Assembly: GCA_001940895.1 (NCBI GenBank)
Contig: MSGY01000006.1
Span: forward strand, 1-64,000
Origin: Christensenellaceae bacterium Phil10
GTDB lineage: Bacteria > Bacillota > Clostridia > Christensenellales > CAG-917
DNA length: 64,000 nt
Direction: 5' to 3'
Shown piece after piece: positions 40,246 through 47,828 of the stretch. Numbering within the stretch: the first letter of the stretch is position 1; each line of letters opens with the position of its first letter. The position numbers and the translations under genes were made by a program. Below the pieces are notes generated by a model. It had not been told where the DNA came from and did no database searches. It was given only the letters and a program-made list of their open reading frames with translations.

Positions 40246-40274
40246 TTTACAAAATTTTTTTGGTATGATATTAT
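40246..40274 (+). promoter_or_regulatory. Promoter of the amino-acid ABC transporter operon
   Basis: TTTACA (40246-40251), 17 bp, TATTAT (40269-40274). The rest of the 291-base gap (40038-40328) is AT-rich; it holds a direct repeat of TATACTTAA at 40095 and 40123 and no gene that I can support. Confidence 0.6.
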
Positions 40275-40328: not shown

Positions 40329-41195
40329 ATGAAAAGAAAAATCGTAACAATAACCGTCATTTCGTTAATAGCGGCATGCGCATTCGCCTTTACCGCATGC
40401 AACAAAAAGTCCGGCTATACCGCTCTCGGCGCGCAAGCGGACATTTTCAAGGAACTCAACGCAAAAACCGCCGACGTCGGCATAATGGACTACACTATGG
40501 CCAACTATCTTTTAAGCACCGAAAGCGCTATGGCAAACAATCTTATGATTGCCGATATCGCGTTCGAGGAGGAATATTACGGTATCGCGTTCAGAAAGGC
40601 CGCCGACGGCAAATACAACGCTCTCACCGATCTCGTAAACAAAACTCTTGTCGAACTTAAAGACTCCGAATACAAAACGATTGCCGAGAAATACGGCATT
40701 TCGGGAAGTACGCTGGACATTACATACTCCGCTCCTTCGGGCGAAGCCGACAATACCGAACTGGACTACGTCGTCTCGAAGGGTAAAATCGTGATAGGAT
40801 TCACCCTCAACGCCCCGATGGCCCTCGGAGAAGGCGACAAAACGACGGGAGGTTTCGACACCGACCTTGCGAACGCCGTCTTTGCGAAAATCAGCGAAAC
40901 TACGGGAAAAACCATAGCCGTCGAATTCAAACTCATCGACTGGAGTAAAAAAGAAGCCGAAATGGAAAGCAAAGCCATCGACTGCGTATGGAACGGTATG
41001 ACGGTAACCCCTGCCCGCTGCGAAATGTGGTCGGTATCGATAAATTATCTTGCCAACAGACAATGCGCCGTCATCAGAAAGTCCGATAAAGACAAATATA
41101 CTACGCTCGAAAGTCTTAAAAATGCGCGCATCGTCGCAGAAGACGGCTCCGCCGGCGAAGAAGCGGCAAAAAGCATACTCGGCATAGCAGCCTGA
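40329..41195 (+). CDS. Amino-acid ABC transporter binding lipoprotein with swapped halves (circular permutation)
   Basis: The 288-residue product has a lipoprotein signal (lipobox FTAC, Cys24). After it, residues 30-123 match the second half of a type-3 solute-binding protein (GAQADIFKELNAKTADVGIM, then EEYYGIAFRK and AEKYGIS), which normally comes last. A linker follows (124-139), then residues 141-288 match the usual first half (SKGKIVIGF, GGFDTDLANAVF, WNGMTVTPAR, IVAEDGSAGEEAAKS) and the protein stops where the second half would begin. The total equals one complete binding domain, so it looks circularly permuted rather than truncated. It serves the permease and ATPase behind it. Confidence 0.88.
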   Translation: MKRKIVTITVISLIAACAFAFTACNKKSGYTALGAQADIFKELNAKTADVGIMDYTMANYLLSTESAMANNLMIADIAFEEEYYGIAFRKAADGKYNALTDLVNKTLVELKDSEYKTIAEKYGISGSTLDITYSAPSGEADNTELDYVVSKGKIVIGFTLNAPMALGEGDKTTGGFDTDLANAVFAKISETTGKTIAVEFKLIDWSKKEAEMESKAIDCVWNGMTVTPARCEMWSVSINYLANRQCAVIRKSDKDKYTTLESLKNARIVAEDGSAGEEAAKSILGIAA

Positions 41196-41209: not shown

Positions 41210-41228
41210 GCCCCCGTTTTTCGGGGGC
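41210..41228 (+). terminator. Intercistronic stem-loop after the binding-protein gene
   Basis: The 7-bp stem GCCCCCG/CGGGGGC with a T5 loop is not followed by a real T run. Such loops between binding-protein and permease genes usually stabilise the upstream message or partly stop transcription. Confidence 0.55.
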
Positions 41229-41241
41229 AATTTATTCCGAC

Positions 41242-41910
41242 ATGATACTTTCAGCAATAACCATCACTTTTACCGAAGTTACAAGACAACTTCTGACCGG
41301 TTTCGGGACAACGTGCTTATTGTTTATATTAACGCTCGTGTTCTCGATACCTCTCGGTCTGGTTGTGTGCTTTGCCTCGACGTCGCGTTTCAAGCCTCTT
41401 TCGTGGCTTGCCCGGATAATCGTATGGATTATACGAGGCACGCCCCTTATGCTTCAGATAATCGTCGTATTTTACGTGCCCGGTTTTCTTTTCGATTATC
41501 CCATGAGTTCGCGTTTTGCGGCCGTTCTCGTGGCTTTCGTGATAAACTACGCGTGCTACTTTTCCGAAATATACAGAGGCGGCATTCAGTCCGTCCCGAA
41601 AGGACAACAGGAAGCGGCGGAAGTGCTGGGAATGAAAAAATCCCAGACATTCCGTTACGTTACTCTTCCGCAGGTTGTTAAGCGCATTATGCCGCCTATG
41701 TCCAACGAAATAATCACTCTGGTCAAGGATACTTCTCTTGCCCGCGTCATCGGCGTGGTAGAACTCATAAAATTCAGCGAGCAGATAGTAAACAACTACG
41801 TAATTCTCTGGCCGCTGTTCTATGCCGGGGTATTCTATCTCGTATTCAACGGATTGCTCAGCGTTCTTTTCCGCTATATCGAAAAGAAACTCGACTACTA
41901 TAAGGTGTGA
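41242..41910 (+). CDS. Polar amino-acid ABC transporter permease
   Basis: The 222-residue protein has about five membrane helices and the His/Glu/Gln-type permease signature RGTPLMLQ, with the EAA loop EAAEVLGMKKSQTFRYVTLP that contacts the ATPase. Its ribosome site is weak. It sits one base before the ATPase gene. Confidence 0.93.
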   Translation: MILSAITITFTEVTRQLLTGFGTTCLLFILTLVFSIPLGLVVCFASTSRFKPLSWLARIIVWIIRGTPLMLQIIVVFYVPGFLFDYPMSSRFAAVLVAFVINYACYFSEIYRGGIQSVPKGQQEAAEVLGMKKSQTFRYVTLPQVVKRIMPPMSNEIITLVKDTSLARVIGVVELIKFSEQIVNNYVILWPLFYAGVFYLVFNGLLSVLFRYIEKKLDYYKV

Positions 41911-41911
41911 A

Positions 41912-42760
41912 ATGAAAATACTCGAAGTAAAGAATCTCAAAAAGAATTTCGGCGACAGAGCCGTTCTCAAGGGCATCGATTTCGATATGGAAAAGGGAGA
42001 AGTTCTTGTAATCATAGGTTCGTCGGGAAGCGGCAAAACCACTCTTTTAAGATGTCTGAACTTTCTGGAAACCGCCGACAGCGGAAGCATTGCCGTAAAC
42101 GGCGACATACTTTACGACGGCACGGTCGACTCGAAAGACAGATACAACGACCTCAGGGAAAAACGCCTGCACTTCGGGCTCGTATTTCAGCAATTCAATC
42201 TTTTTCCGCATATGAACGTACTGAAAAACGTGAAAATGCCCGCCGAACTTCTGCTGAAAGACGCCTTGAAAAAGGAAAAAATCCGTTTGAAATCGGAAGG
42301 AGTCAAAGGAAACGAACTTCGGAAATCGCTTTCGTCTTTTAAGGAAAAGGAATATCGCGGATTAGACTACCGCGCGAAAATTCTTATCGACCGCGTTGGT
42401 CTTTCCGACAGCATTAATGCCTATCCGTGCGAGCTTTCGGGCGGACAACAGCAACGGGTAGCAATCGCGCGGGCGCTGGAACTTTCGCCAGATATTCTTT
42501 GTTTTGACGAGCCCACGTCCGCTCTCGACCCCGAACTGACGGGCGAGGTGCTTAAAGTTATCCGCTCGCTGAAAACCGGCGACCGCACAATGATAATAGT
42601 AACCCACGAAATGGACTTTGCAAGAAAAGTCGCCGACCGCGTAATTTTTATGGCCGACGGAGTAATCGAAGAAGAAGGGTCGCCCGACGAGATATTTACA
42701 AATCCCCAAAGCGAAAAAACCAAAGCCTTTCTCGCAAACGTCAACAATCCCGATTTTTAA
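41912..42760 (+). CDS. Polar amino-acid ABC transporter ATP-binding protein with Lys-rich insert
   Basis: The 282-residue ATPase has Walker A GSSGSGKTT, Q-loop FQQFNLFPHM, signature LSGGQQQR, Walker B ILCFDEPTSALDPE and the H-loop VTHEM. Between the Q-loop and the signature it carries about 35 extra, very Lys-rich residues (near 110-150) compared with the usual 240-250-residue members. AAGGTG precedes the ATG at 41912. Confidence 0.93.
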   Translation: MKILEVKNLKKNFGDRAVLKGIDFDMEKGEVLVIIGSSGSGKTTLLRCLNFLETADSGSIAVNGDILYDGTVDSKDRYNDLREKRLHFGLVFQQFNLFPHMNVLKNVKMPAELLLKDALKKEKIRLKSEGVKGNELRKSLSSFKEKEYRGLDYRAKILIDRVGLSDSINAYPCELSGGQQQRVAIARALELSPDILCFDEPTSALDPELTGEVLKVIRSLKTGDRTMIIVTHEMDFARKVADRVIFMADGVIEEEGSPDEIFTNPQSEKTKAFLANVNNPDF

Positions 42761-42827: not shown

Positions 42828-45800
42828 CTATTGCGCCGTCCAGGCCGACGTCGTCGCGTCGTATCGGTAGGTCTTGCCCTTTTCCGCCTGCACACCCGAA
42901 AGCGTTGCGGCTTTCGTTACGCTGCATACTTCTTCGTAGGTAACCACGACGTAGATGCCCGACGTGGAGTTGCTTCCCTTTCCTTCTTTCGACGTAATGC
43001 CCGTAAGAGTCGCCGAGGCTCCCGTATTGACCGCTCCGCCGCCCGTCGACAGAATATTTCCGCCGAATGCGCCGTTGATATTCATCGTTCCGTTTACGGT
43101 TATTACCGAGTCTCCTCTTGCCGCGCCGGGATAAGGACAGGTGCTTATGTCGGTAAAGGTATGGTCGTACGTTATCGCTTTTCCGTTAAGATTATACGTC
43201 GCGCCCGGCTTTACGGTAAGCGTCGCGCCCGGCATAAATTTGAACGAATAGTCCTGCGTAAACGTCGTGCCGTCCTCGAGCGTTATATCGGTCCTGCCGT
43301 CGACGGGGAAAAACACTTTTTCGGACGACATCGTTATTTCGCACTTGAACACGGCAACTTTTATACTTGTATAGCCGTCCTTTACGCTTCCGTAAAGTTT
43401 AAGTCCCACGCGGTTTTCAGAGAAAGTCTTTACGATTTTGCTGTCAGTCCCCACAAGCCTTAACAGTCCGCTCGACGCGTCGCTTCCGTCTGACGAAACG
43501 AACACAATGTACGCCTCGTTAATCTGAGCGGGAACCGTAATGCCCATTTTTTCCTGTGCGCTCGTCGCTATTTTCGCATAGCCTTTAAGCGTGCTGCCTT
43601 TGTTTATCGTAAGCGTAACCCGAATGCTGCGAAGTTCGTATTGGCTGAACGGGAACTGCGTCGGATTGTCCACCGAAAAGCTTCCGCCGAAAGCCACTGT
43701 CGTTCCGAGAATTTTATCGTTGCCGACGTATCTTGCCGACGACACCGTGCCACCCATCCAGCCCGAAAGATGCAGATTTTCTACTACCGTCGAGTTGTTT
43801 GCCGTTATTTCTCCCGACCCTTTAATATATCCGTATACTTCAAGAGCCGCGTTATTCAGTACGATATTACCGTTAAGAATAACCTCGCTGTAACCGCCGG
43901 ATATTCTGTTCTGTCCCGTTCCTGCCTGTCGACTTCCCGTCAATGCGCCGACGATAAACGAACCGTATACGGTAATATTCGTTCCCTCGGGTACGGTCAG
44001 AGTACGATAAAGCATCGGCGTTCCGTTGGACGCGGGATGAGCGCCGTAGTTTTCCGAGCCGTCCTCACCTCCGCCAACGTGTCCTTTTACGTCGGTTTCG
44101 CTGAACGGCACGAGAAGGGTTACGCCCGTTTTAACGGTGCGGTACGCATTATCGTTGTATAATACGTCCGCAATAGATTTTTCGGCAAACGCCGTATCGG
44201 TCGTTACGATAACGACGTTTCCGCTTTTCGCGTTGAACAGGGCGTCCTCTATCGTATAATAACTTTCGCCGATTTTTACGCCCTTGACTTTAACGTAACA
44301 TACGCCGTCCGCCAAGCGATAGTTGTCGGAAGTCATCGTAACGACGCTCTTATAAGTGCCCGCCGCCGTAAACGAAGATACGTCGAAAGTCAAAGTATAA
44401 TATTCGGCTGAAAGTTCGTTTCCTTTATAAATCACGACGGGCCGTATTTCGTGCGCGTTTCCGTCGTAAACAAATTCGAAAATATTTGAGAAAATGCTCG
44501 TTTCCGCTTTTTTCACATCAACGGATATATTAAGCGTAAAATCGTTGTGGTTTTCGGGATCGGCATTATATATCGCCTCGTACGCGCCTTTTTTGCACAC
44601 GGGAATTTCGGAAAGATTTTTCCATCTGTATCCCGCGTCGAGCGCAACGTCCGAAAGCCTTTGCGCGGGATCGTACGTTATTGCAATCAATTTGCCGTAA
44701 GAAACGTCCGCGTAGTCGGCCTTTGCCATTTCGACGGAAGATGTATCGTTCGTAAACTCATAGTTTCCGTTTGCGTCGGCGGCATATGCGACGTATTGAC
44801 CTGCGTTTATAAATTCACACGCAACGCCGTCTTTTCTGAAAACTACGGTTGCAGACGCTTCGTTGCCGTTAACGTCAGTGAACACTGCCGTGACGGTTTG
44901 CGAAGTACCGTCGTAAACGTGTCCCGTCAGCCCGCCCCACGTAAGAGTCGCCTGTTTTTTGTTTACGGTCAGAACACCCGGAACGAAAGTAATATCGTAA
45001 TTTCGGTGCGAAAGCCCCGAAATTTTTATTTCGTGCGTTCCGGCGCCGTAGCCGTCAATCTGATATTGCGCCGTACCGAGGTCCGCTCCTTCGTCGCCCG
45101 CTACCAATCCCTGCGTACTATAAGTATTCACGAACACTTCGCCGAAGGTTATCGTAACGTCGTTTGCGGTAACGGTAAGAGGCGCCCTGTTTATCGTCAG
45201 ATTGATTTGTCCTTCCTCGTCAGAAAGCAGACCGTCGTTATCGTGAACTTTGAAATATACGACGTAAGAACCCGCATTGTTGAATTCAGGAACGGTATCG
45301 GAATATTCGCCGCCTTCTGTTTTATAGGTTATCGTATAATGAGTGCCATCCGCGGCGGTTACAAAAACCGAATGATATTTACCGTCGTATATAACCGTCT
45401 CGTCCTTAAAGGTTATGTCGAAATTGACGTTGACCAGAGTAACGCTGAACGAATAATTTATATCGTAGCAATCCGCGTTGGTAACGGAAAGACCGCTCAG
45501 GTCGAAGTCACCTATATTATCGTGCGTGCCTTCTGTATTGACGTTCAGCGATACGACGCCGTTGACCTCGTCGCTTCCCTGCAATCCTTTTATTTCAAGT
45601 CTGTCCGCAGTTGCGCTGAAACCGTCCCTCAATGCGGCACGGGCGGTAAGACTTATATTAAGAGCGCGTTTGTGCGCCACCTTGAAGGTTTTGCTTTCGA
45701 TTTCGCCCGATAAAATATAATTGTCGCTTAAACCGTTTAAAGTTGCAGATACGCTGTATAAACCGCCCACTTTGTCATAACGATTATAATTTGTTACATA

Positions 45801-47828
45801 GGAAACGTTTAAGGTATCGCTACCGTACAATCCTTCGGCGGTTATCGCGAATTCGGGACACGGGTCGCCGTAAGTCAAGTCGGCAACGTCGTTTATAGTT
45901 ACTGTTATTTCTCGCGGCGATACGGTAAGAGTGCCGTCTTTTACGGTAACCGAATAATTTTCGGACGCCGTTACGCTTGCGGTAATCGCATAATTATCGA
46001 CCGCGTCGCCCTTTCTGTAATCTGTTGAAATTTCCGCGGTTGCCTTGTCCGAAAACCTCAGACCCTCGATTATTGCCGCGACGTCCGACGGAAAATCGTC
46101 GCCGTAAACGATACCGCGGGAGGGCAACGTGACGGTGAGAGGCGCTTTGTTTACCGTAAGCGTCAGTTGATTTCCTTCGTCGGTTTCGGTAATATACCTG
46201 AATTCATAATTATCCGAAGTAAGCCCCGAAACATTCTTTACCGCGAACTCGCCCGTGCGTGTTGCATTTTGTCTTATCGTGATTTCGCCCTGCGTCAGGA
46301 CGTAGTTCATATAATTTATTTCGCCGCTTATTTCGCTTACGTCTCCCGTAAAATTAACGGGTATCCAGTTGAGAGTCGGAAGTCGTTCGCCGTAAAAAAC
46401 AGATATATCGGGAAGGGAAACTCTGATTTCGGCAACGGCCTTTTTTACGGTTACTTTCGCTTCGCCGACAACCTTATCCTTGTGATTTTTTCTGGATATT
46501 TTGACGAATACGCTGTATTCGCCTGCGTTTTCGAACGCCGGAGCGGTTGTCGAAAAATCACCCATTGCGCCGGTGCCGTACAGAATTACGTCGCCTTCAA
46601 GGCAGTTTACGCCGGGAAGGTGCGCTTTACCGTCGGCATATACGTACTCGGTATCGTAAACGCTGACGTCGGTTATCGTAAGCGGAGTTATCGAAATGTC
46701 GATGTTTTTTCCGCTTTCGATTTCCTTATAAGTTTCAAGCCCGTATTCTTCCGCCGAAAGAACGACCCTGACTTTGAACTTATAGTTTCCGACGTCGGGA
46801 CAATCTATTCCGACGCGGGGCAGATAATAATTCCCGTCGTTTTCAACGGGGATAATCTTATCTTTTTCCCCATTCTTATACCAGACGTAAACGTAATCGC
46901 CGTCGTCGTTTTGTTCGTATTTTCTCTCGAACACGCCAAGACTTCCGTATTCTTCCTGGGTATTGACGTTTCTTACAAACCACTCGTATTTATACGTTAT
47001 TCCTTGTACTTCGAACGCCGCGGCGCTTAAATTCGCAACTATCCCCTTATCAGCGTCGTACGGTATATTTGTAAAGTTAAGGCAAATCTCCGCGCCGACG
47101 GGACTGTCGTCGATTCGGATTTTTGCACCGAATCCGGTATTTTCACCCTTCATAACCGCCGAAGTCGCGTCGACGGGAGTCTTTGTTTCGTCTTCTCTGT
47201 CGTACCAGCCGTCGAAAAGAAAACCTTCGGGTACGACAAGTTTATTCTGTGCGGATAAAAACATATCCGAAATACTCTCTCCCGTTTCCACGGCGTCGTA
47301 TACTTCTATAGCCGCGCCCGTGAAATCGTAAAACGTAAGCGTGTACTTCTTTGGAGTGAACGTTGCGTAAACTTTTATATCTGCAGTAACGTTATCAAAC
47401 GGTCTGTTCCAGCCCTCAAAATCGTATCCTTCCTTATCGACGACAGGGGCGACCGCCGCTCCTCCGTATTCGACGGGCTGTGTTTCAATCATGTTTTCCC
47501 CGTCGTAAAAAGTCACCGTAAACGTCCTAATTTCCCATTTTCCGTAAACAATGCTGCCGTCTTCGGGCGTTTTTTCAAGCGGTATGGTCAGTTCTTTATC
47601 GATAAACCACCCCACGAAGTCGTATCCCGTTTTGGTAGTGGGCGTAAACCTCAGCACTTTCGATGCGTCGTAACTTTCGCGGAATACTTCGTCACCGTCC
47701 ATAAGAGTAACATATGAGGTTCCTACGTCGTCCGAAACCTGCTCGTGAACGCACGCGCAAAAACTCGCTGTCAGCATAATCAAAACAATCAGCGTAAGAC
47801 AAATCCTAATACGTCTTCTTTTTTTCAT
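42828..47828 (-). CDS. Giant secreted protein with InlB-type and MBG repeats and a C-terminal beta-solenoid
   Basis: The 1666-residue protein has an N-terminal signal sequence ending near a possible lipobox (SFCAC). Three InlB/Listeria-Bacteroides repeats follow (about 40-230, with GYDFVGW, GYDFEGW and GFLFDGW), then a tandem series of MBG-type beta domains (about 390-1130, for example APLTVTANDVTITFGE), and a Gly/Asn-rich beta-solenoid-like C-terminal part (about 1200-1666). There is no LPXTG or SLH anchor. It lies 13 bases after another giant gene and shares an operon with an ABC exporter. A cell-surface or adhesin role is likely. Confidence 0.85.
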   Translation of the reverse strand: MKKRRRIRICLTLIVLIMLTASFCACVHEQVSDDVGTSYVTLMDGDEVFRESYDASKVLRFTPTTKTGYDFVGWFIDKELTIPLEKTPEDGSIVYGKWEIRTFTVTFYDGENMIETQPVEYGGAAVAPVVDKEGYDFEGWNRPFDNVTADIKVYATFTPKKYTLTFYDFTGAAIEVYDAVETGESISDMFLSAQNKLVVPEGFLFDGWYDREDETKTPVDATSAVMKGENTGFGAKIRIDDSPVGAEICLNFTNIPYDADKGIVANLSAAAFEVQGITYKYEWFVRNVNTQEEYGSLGVFERKYEQNDDGDYVYVWYKNGEKDKIIPVENDGNYYLPRVGIDCPDVGNYKFKVRVVLSAEEYGLETYKEIESGKNIDISITPLTITDVSVYDTEYVYADGKAHLPGVNCLEGDVILYGTGAMGDFSTTAPAFENAGEYSVFVKISRKNHKDKVVGEAKVTVKKAVAEIRVSLPDISVFYGERLPTLNWIPVNFTGDVSEISGEINYMNYVLTQGEITIRQNATRTGEFAVKNVSGLTSDNYEFRYITETDEGNQLTLTVNKAPLTVTLPSRGIVYGDDFPSDVAAIIEGLRFSDKATAEISTDYRKGDAVDNYAITASVTASENYSVTVKDGTLTVSPREITVTINDVADLTYGDPCPEFAITAEGLYGSDTLNVSYVTNYNRYDKVGGLYSVSATLNGLSDNYILSGEIESKTFKVAHKRALNISLTARAALRDGFSATADRLEIKGLQGSDEVNGVVSLNVNTEGTHDNIGDFDLSGLSVTNADCYDINYSFSVTLVNVNFDITFKDETVIYDGKYHSVFVTAADGTHYTITYKTEGGEYSDTVPEFNNAGSYVVYFKVHDNDGLLSDEEGQINLTINRAPLTVTANDVTITFGEVFVNTYSTQGLVAGDEGADLGTAQYQIDGYGAGTHEIKISGLSHRNYDITFVPGVLTVNKKQATLTWGGLTGHVYDGTSQTVTAVFTDVNGNEASATVVFRKDGVACEFINAGQYVAYAADANGNYEFTNDTSSVEMAKADYADVSYGKLIAITYDPAQRLSDVALDAGYRWKNLSEIPVCKKGAYEAIYNADPENHNDFTLNISVDVKKAETSIFSNIFEFVYDGNAHEIRPVVIYKGNELSAEYYTLTFDVSSFTAAGTYKSVVTMTSDNYRLADGVCYVKVKGVKIGESYYTIEDALFNAKSGNVVIVTTDTAFAEKSIADVLYNDNAYRTVKTGVTLLVPFSETDVKGHVGGGEDGSENYGAHPASNGTPMLYRTLTVPEGTNITVYGSFIVGALTGSRQAGTGQNRISGGYSEVILNGNIVLNNAALEVYGYIKGSGEITANNSTVVENLHLSGWMGGTVSSARYVGNDKILGTTVAFGGSFSVDNPTQFPFSQYELRSIRVTLTINKGSTLKGYAKIATSAQEKMGITVPAQINEAYIVFVSSDGSDASSGLLRLVGTDSKIVKTFSENRVGLKLYGSVKDGYTSIKVAVFKCEITMSSEKVFFPVDGRTDITLEDGTTFTQDYSFKFMPGATLTVKPGATYNLNGKAITYDHTFTDISTCPYPGAARGDSVITVNGTMNINGAFGGNILSTGGGAVNTGASATLTGITSKEGKGSNSTSGIYVVVTYEEVCSVTKAATLSGVQAEKGKTYRYDATTSAWTAQ

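Follow-up and report, generated by a model that had tools for sequence, protein, structure and literature searches.

Circularly permuted type-3 amino-acid binding lipoproteins in a Christensenellaceae bacterium and related Clostridia, with four recurring cut sites

Circular permutation in nature is generally regarded as a rare single event per protein family, and the usual model for it is duplication or fusion with subsequent loss of the outer halves. The only natural permuted binding-protein precedent that we found (in the open-access literature and few subscription papers) is TpMglB-2 (Tp0684) of Treponema pallidum, a lipid-anchored, circularly permuted ABC binding protein assigned to "Type Ic / Cluster Bc" (PMC4990184). 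Homologs of it are also found in Gram-positive bacteria, and, though permuted, it binds ligand and changes conformation (PMC4990184). It has a type I fold and a sugar ligand; its single type of cut introduces a fourth hinge crossing, and its permuted part bears scant resemblance to the canonical counterpart (PMC4990184). In the open-access literature and the few subscription papers covered, we found neither a description of permuted type-3 binding proteins nor any account of binding proteins being permuted recurrently.

The DNA analyzed here (the window) is a stretch of 64,000 nucleotides from Christensenellaceae bacterium Phil10 (contig MSGY01000006.1, positions 1 to 64,000). One of its open reading frames encodes a protein of 288 aa with a lipobox (FTAC) at Cys24. 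Its parts are given below, where h numbers are positions (h1-h242) of a canonical-order HMM, 242 positions long, that was made from seven relatives without permutation.

40329..41195, forward strand: circularly permuted type-3 amino-acid binding lipoprotein gene, cut-site type A (profile and rotation scoring)
40329..40400, forward strand: lipoprotein signal peptide and lipobox, ending at Cys24, the mature anchor residue (AFTAC; Cys conserved in the alignment)
40413..40712, forward strand: old C-terminal part, now first, with the second half of lobe II, the return hinge strand and the C-terminal helices of lobe I (profile h136/145-240; model; rotation)
40713..40742, forward strand: polar linker from the old C-terminus to the old N-terminus (rotation optimum here)
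40743..41192, forward strand: old N-terminal part, now last, with the N-terminal half of lobe I, the first hinge strand and the first strand and helix of lobe II (profile h2-139; 4ohn match; rotation)

Residues ~29-128 correspond to the C-terminal portion of a type-3 binding protein, and residues ~139-288 to its N-terminal portion. When compared with PDB 4ohn by phmmer, query residues 150-277 aligned to chain positions 16-136 and residues 47-122 to positions 172-243, the second piece being weak alone. The canonical-order HMM likewise found h136-240 first, then h2-139. An exhaustive rotation scan of the mature protein gave a single optimum, with cuts at linker residues 131-138; the rotated protein was matched as one full-length domain (h2-240, 180 bits), whereas the native order gave two pieces (118.9 and 54.5 bits). 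A canonical protein, used as control, scored best when unrotated. Because the profile order, the single rotation optimum and the unrotated control agree, the reading of a permuted order at 40329-41195 is correct, and the reading frame is confirmed as an SBP_bac_3 / cluster F amino-acid binding lipoprotein that is circularly permuted, with its C-terminal part first. The Pfam model SBP_bac_3 (PF00497) scored 63.5 bits against a cut-off of 26.4, its best stretch covering residues 155-254 only. Similarity over the whole domain, as expected of cluster F, is met at full length after rotation. A canonical chain begins and ends in lobe I; here the order is reversed and the termini lie in lobe II, so the N-to-C arrangement expected of cluster F is absent.

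To model the protein, AlphaFold2 was given the window protein, one relative (L031) and separately aligned halves of relatives (alignment A7). The resulting model had a pLDDT of 87.8 and a pTM of 0.83, while a model from two sequences alone (pLDDT 44.5) was too poor for use. From the chain start, the model runs through strand, helix, strand, helix, helix, strand, long hinge strand and two helices; from the linker onward, it runs through beta1, a hairpin, alpha1, beta2, alpha2, beta3, alpha3, a long hinge strand, helix, strand and helix. Once rotated, this is the element order of the cluster F fold (HisJ, GlnBP), and a complete cluster F fold, permuted, is predicted for the window protein. Both long hinge strands are kept, at mature residues 58-65 and 218-227 (prediction only), and the cluster F expectation of two lobes with two hinge strands is met only in this predicted model. 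Foldseek matched the model mostly to type II fold proteins in the PDB, with full-length TM values below 0.5; such low values are expected with a permuted chain, because Foldseek compares structures in chain order. No significant match was found among viral models. None of the 60 best matches among solved structures was a lone permuted type-3 domain; the only chain to span the junction was 6h30, in which two binding domains are naturally fused.

The residues expected at a cluster F ligand site are present in the window protein: R230 (TxxR), S274 (GSxG) and D54 of lobe II. The lobe-II Asp, which contacts the ligand in the SBP_bac_3 family (GlnBP, HisJ), is found in all scored permutants. The TxxR Arg, which we take to hold the ligand carboxylate, is absent in several permutants and some canonical relatives (L004-L009, L047, L056, L058, L060 and others), suggesting a changed ligand in those proteins.

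The binding-protein gene is followed by a permease gene (BPD_transp_1) and then a GlnQ-like ATPase gene, so that the genetic link to a polar amino-acid permease and ATPase expected of cluster F is met at this locus.

40246..40274, forward strand: putative sigma-70-like promoter, TTTACA-17-TATTAT with TG before the second hexamer (consensus match)
41210..41228, forward strand: terminator-like GC hairpin between the binding-protein and permease genes (consensus match only)
41242..41910, forward strand: ABC permease, BPD_transp_1 / HEQRo family, single gene (family matches)
41909..42760, forward strand: ABC transporter ATPase, GlnQ/HisP/TcyN-like

The evidence for the promoter is weak, since such consensus matches occur at background frequency; the hairpin is as expected if the binding protein is expressed above the permease. 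The permease, encoded by one gene, is expected to act as a homodimer. A permease lies directly downstream at 96 of the 102 permutant loci, and four of the six exceptions end within 300 bases. The window ATPase carries ~29 extra charged residues between its Q-loop and signature (window ~42254-42358), and up to ~90 extra residues are seen in this stretch in the ATPases of relatives. A tie between this insertion and the permutation was rejected, as canonical operons carry the insertion too. Directly downstream, on the opposite strand (42828-47828), lies a gene for a protein of 1666 aa that begins like a lipoprotein and contains MBG and Listeria-Bacteroides repeat domains.

The genome of the window is a fragmented draft (25 contigs, 55% complete), a state in which a misassembly, or a chimera of two neighboring binding-protein genes, could be mistaken for a permuted gene; none of the genomes searched is of the same genus. 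We consider this explanation close to impossible. Relatives with the same order were found as intact reading frames in separate assemblies at 61, 59, 52 and 52% identity, with others down to 35% identity. The order also recurs in more remote genomes of the same family and taxonomic order, as well as in a Clostridia MAG from sheep colon. The signal peptide, cut point and stop also agree with a four-site pattern across 101 proteins, and the window's own genome yielded only one such gene. As far as sequence comparison can decide, misassembly is already refuted by the relatives with the same order. It is also very improbable that the gene is a decaying or non-functional rearranged pseudogene: the loss of the ligand Arg in some relatives could be read that way, but the Asp is invariant, the frames are intact, the gene sits in an operon with permease and ATPase, and dN/dS was 0.03-0.15 in ten permutant pairs. 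The permutant relatives are shown by these values to be under purifying selection. The pair of the window gene and L034 gave a dN/dS of 0.07, but with a saturated dS (4.4).

The preliminary description of this gene had proposed a circular permutation, and this proposal is borne out by the rotation scoring, the confident model with the full element order of a binding protein and the same order in related genomes. The boundaries that it drew (residues 30-123 and 141-288) were off by a few residues at most. Three of the checks that it suggested came out in its favor: the halves rejoined in canonical order gave the single 180-bit match to the canonical-order HMM, the predicted structure has the complete two-lobed element order of the HisJ/GlnH-type fold in permuted form, and relatives with this order exist in independent genomes down to the lowest identity given above. 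Neither of the outcomes named as fatal to it, a misassembly or the lack of a two-lobed fold in the prediction, was obtained.

To survey the family, a junction-spanning query and a profile were used on genomes of the order (396), the class (341) and the phylum (299). We classified 101 complete permutants and 68 canonical sequences; L120 and L141 were left out of the counts because contig ends cut these genes. The permutants fall into four types by the position of the cut.

Cut site C, h31-34: hairpin after strand 1, in lobe I; 19 permutants
Cut site H, ~h109-115: just past hinge strand 1; 25 permutants
Cut site A (the type of the window protein), ~h135-145: inside lobe II; 31 permutants
Cut site B, ~h180-186: just ahead of hinge strand 2; 26 permutants

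Each of the four sites is a loop position in the AlphaFold2 model. In types H and B each lobe is one continuous stretch and a single hinge strand joins the lobes; types A and C keep both hinge strands. It follows from the order of parts, without having been measured, that the anchor Cys is on lobe II in A and H, where the return hinge strand begins in B, and ~2-3 residues from lobe I in C. Linker lengths are unremarkable. Within the order, at least 58 genomes encode permutants; the class sample (341 genomes) contained at least 28 such genomes and the phylum sample (299) at least 12. These counts hold only among the matches listed and are not frequencies, because the query favored permutants. 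Several genomes hold canonical and permuted copies together. One genome (G415; contigs C30, C12 and C23) holds three permutants, of which two are type B and the third has type-H-like pieces. A type B permutant (L146) lies on a contig catalogued as viral (IMGVR_UViG_3300028326_000340), possibly host DNA. No plasmid record matched over 80% of the junction query.

Trees of the rotated sequences, canonical and permuted, were built with IQ-TREE and FastTree, and the two orders interleave on them. The IQ-TREE tree required 24 changes among five states (canonical, A, B, C and H), and 17 when only canonical and permuted were distinguished. With branches below an SH-aLRT of 95 collapsed, 17 five-state changes and 12 canonical-versus-permuted changes remained (14 and 9 when collapsed at 98); the corresponding FastTree counts were 17 and 11 at 95, and 14 and 6 at 98. 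Gain and loss of permutation are not separable in these counts. Permutation arose many times independently at four recurring cut sites, both in gut Clostridia and elsewhere in the phylum, and would thereby have shifted the membrane anchor and the hinge repeatedly. The preliminary description had called such permutation rare, a view that does not hold for the type-3 binding proteins sampled here, where permutants are common and arose repeatedly. One canonical pair (L090/L094) sits among type C proteins and may be a return to canonical order. Canonical L129 is ~70% identical to the B-type proteins L106, L113 and L114, and canonical L148 and L176 are ~60% identical to the H-type L150; such close pairs show recent events.

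Two readings of this recurrence were weighed. Permutation could be neutral, keeping the fold, bringing no functional change and being frequent through frequent duplication of binding-protein genes. This reading, which we hold as apt to be right as wrong, is favored by the placing of cuts in loops, by the sharing of genomes between canonical and permuted copies and by the ordinary linkers. It sits less well with at least 12 switches at only four sites, which looks non-random, in a sample of this phylum only and without a comparison to chance loops. The same recurrence at four sites speaks for an adaptive reading, in which permutation at four preferred loops in Clostridia and relatives would shift the lipid anchor from lobe to lobe: types A, B and H would carry it on lobe II or at the hinge, and type C flush against lobe I. 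Types B and H would also be left with only one covalent hinge strand, and these changes would tune how the protein closes or docks on the homodimeric permease. The nearness of the type C anchor Cys to the fold (~2-3 residues) would fit it, and an anchoring argument was raised for TpMglB-2 by its authors (PMC4990184). However, no functional data stand behind the adaptive reading, and permeases of this kind also work with canonical binding proteins, in part within the same genomes; we regard it as possible and rather doubtful. If true, circular permutation would be an evolutionary means of tuning docking and closing on a homodimeric permease.

The most likely origin is an in-frame duplication or fusion of binding-protein domains that would have been followed by loss of the outer parts, a plausible route that is inferred and only indirectly supported. 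Fused tandem domains (6h30 and the 731-aa L190) and adjacent canonical binding-protein copies (G646) are known in the family, and the precursors needed for this route therefore exist. No fused intermediate gene of a permuted lineage was found in the surveyed genomes, and no end overlaps are left in the permutants as traces of duplication. Stop-containing similarity past the ends of L079, L083 and L084 was considered as a duplication remnant and rejected, the downstream DNA being permease.

We are highly confident that the best explanation of the window gene is a working, lipid-anchored cluster F binding protein for polar amino acids, permuted inside lobe II, most probably derived by duplication or fusion, and one of at least 101. 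Its order of parts, conservation, operon and recurrence and the purifying selection on its relatives are observed, and its fold is predicted. The chain would now start at the second strand of lobe II and end at the first helix of that lobe, the old termini in lobe I being bridged by a linker of ~10 residues. Since both hinge strands are kept, the protein should close on its ligand like HisJ/GlnH. It would then deliver its ligand to the transporter encoded beside it, formed by the one permease as a homodimer together with the ATPase, while the membrane anchor would hang from lobe II and not from lobe I. With no binding or transport data, amino-acid binding and import, the ligand class and the geometry of the anchor with its consequence remain inferences, as does the duplication route.

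That one family shows 12 or more switches, even in a sample of modest size, contrasts with the usual view of permutation as a single event. As canonical and permuted homologs are up to ~70% identical, the fitness effect, the route and the roles of hinge strand and anchor are testable on natural pairs. Pfam and NCBIfam models see permutants only partly, and order-dependent structure comparison matches them poorly (full-length TM <0.5).

With the type-3 solute-binding proteins (SBP_bac_3, PF00497; cluster F, type II: HisJ, GlnH, 4ohn, 3hv1), the window protein shares family, predicted fold, ligand-site residues and lipobox, and its operon shares the HEQRo-type permease and GlnQ-like ATPase. It differs in that its two parts are permuted and its anchor is on lobe II, and the models of the family match it only in part. 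In GlnP SBD1-SBD2 (PDB 6h30) and L190, an old C-terminus is linked to an N-terminus of the same family, as expected of a permutation intermediate, but each of these chains holds two complete canonical domains and the window protein one permuted domain. The window protein resembles TpMglB-2 in being naturally permuted, yet it is no member of Type Ic / Cluster Bc: it matches type-3 amino-acid binding proteins only, and a relation to the type I, MglB-related sugar-binding proteins is not met. Compared with TpMglB-2, the group described here has a type II fold, belongs to an amino-acid family, was cut at four sites in many independent events and has kept its sequence similarity.
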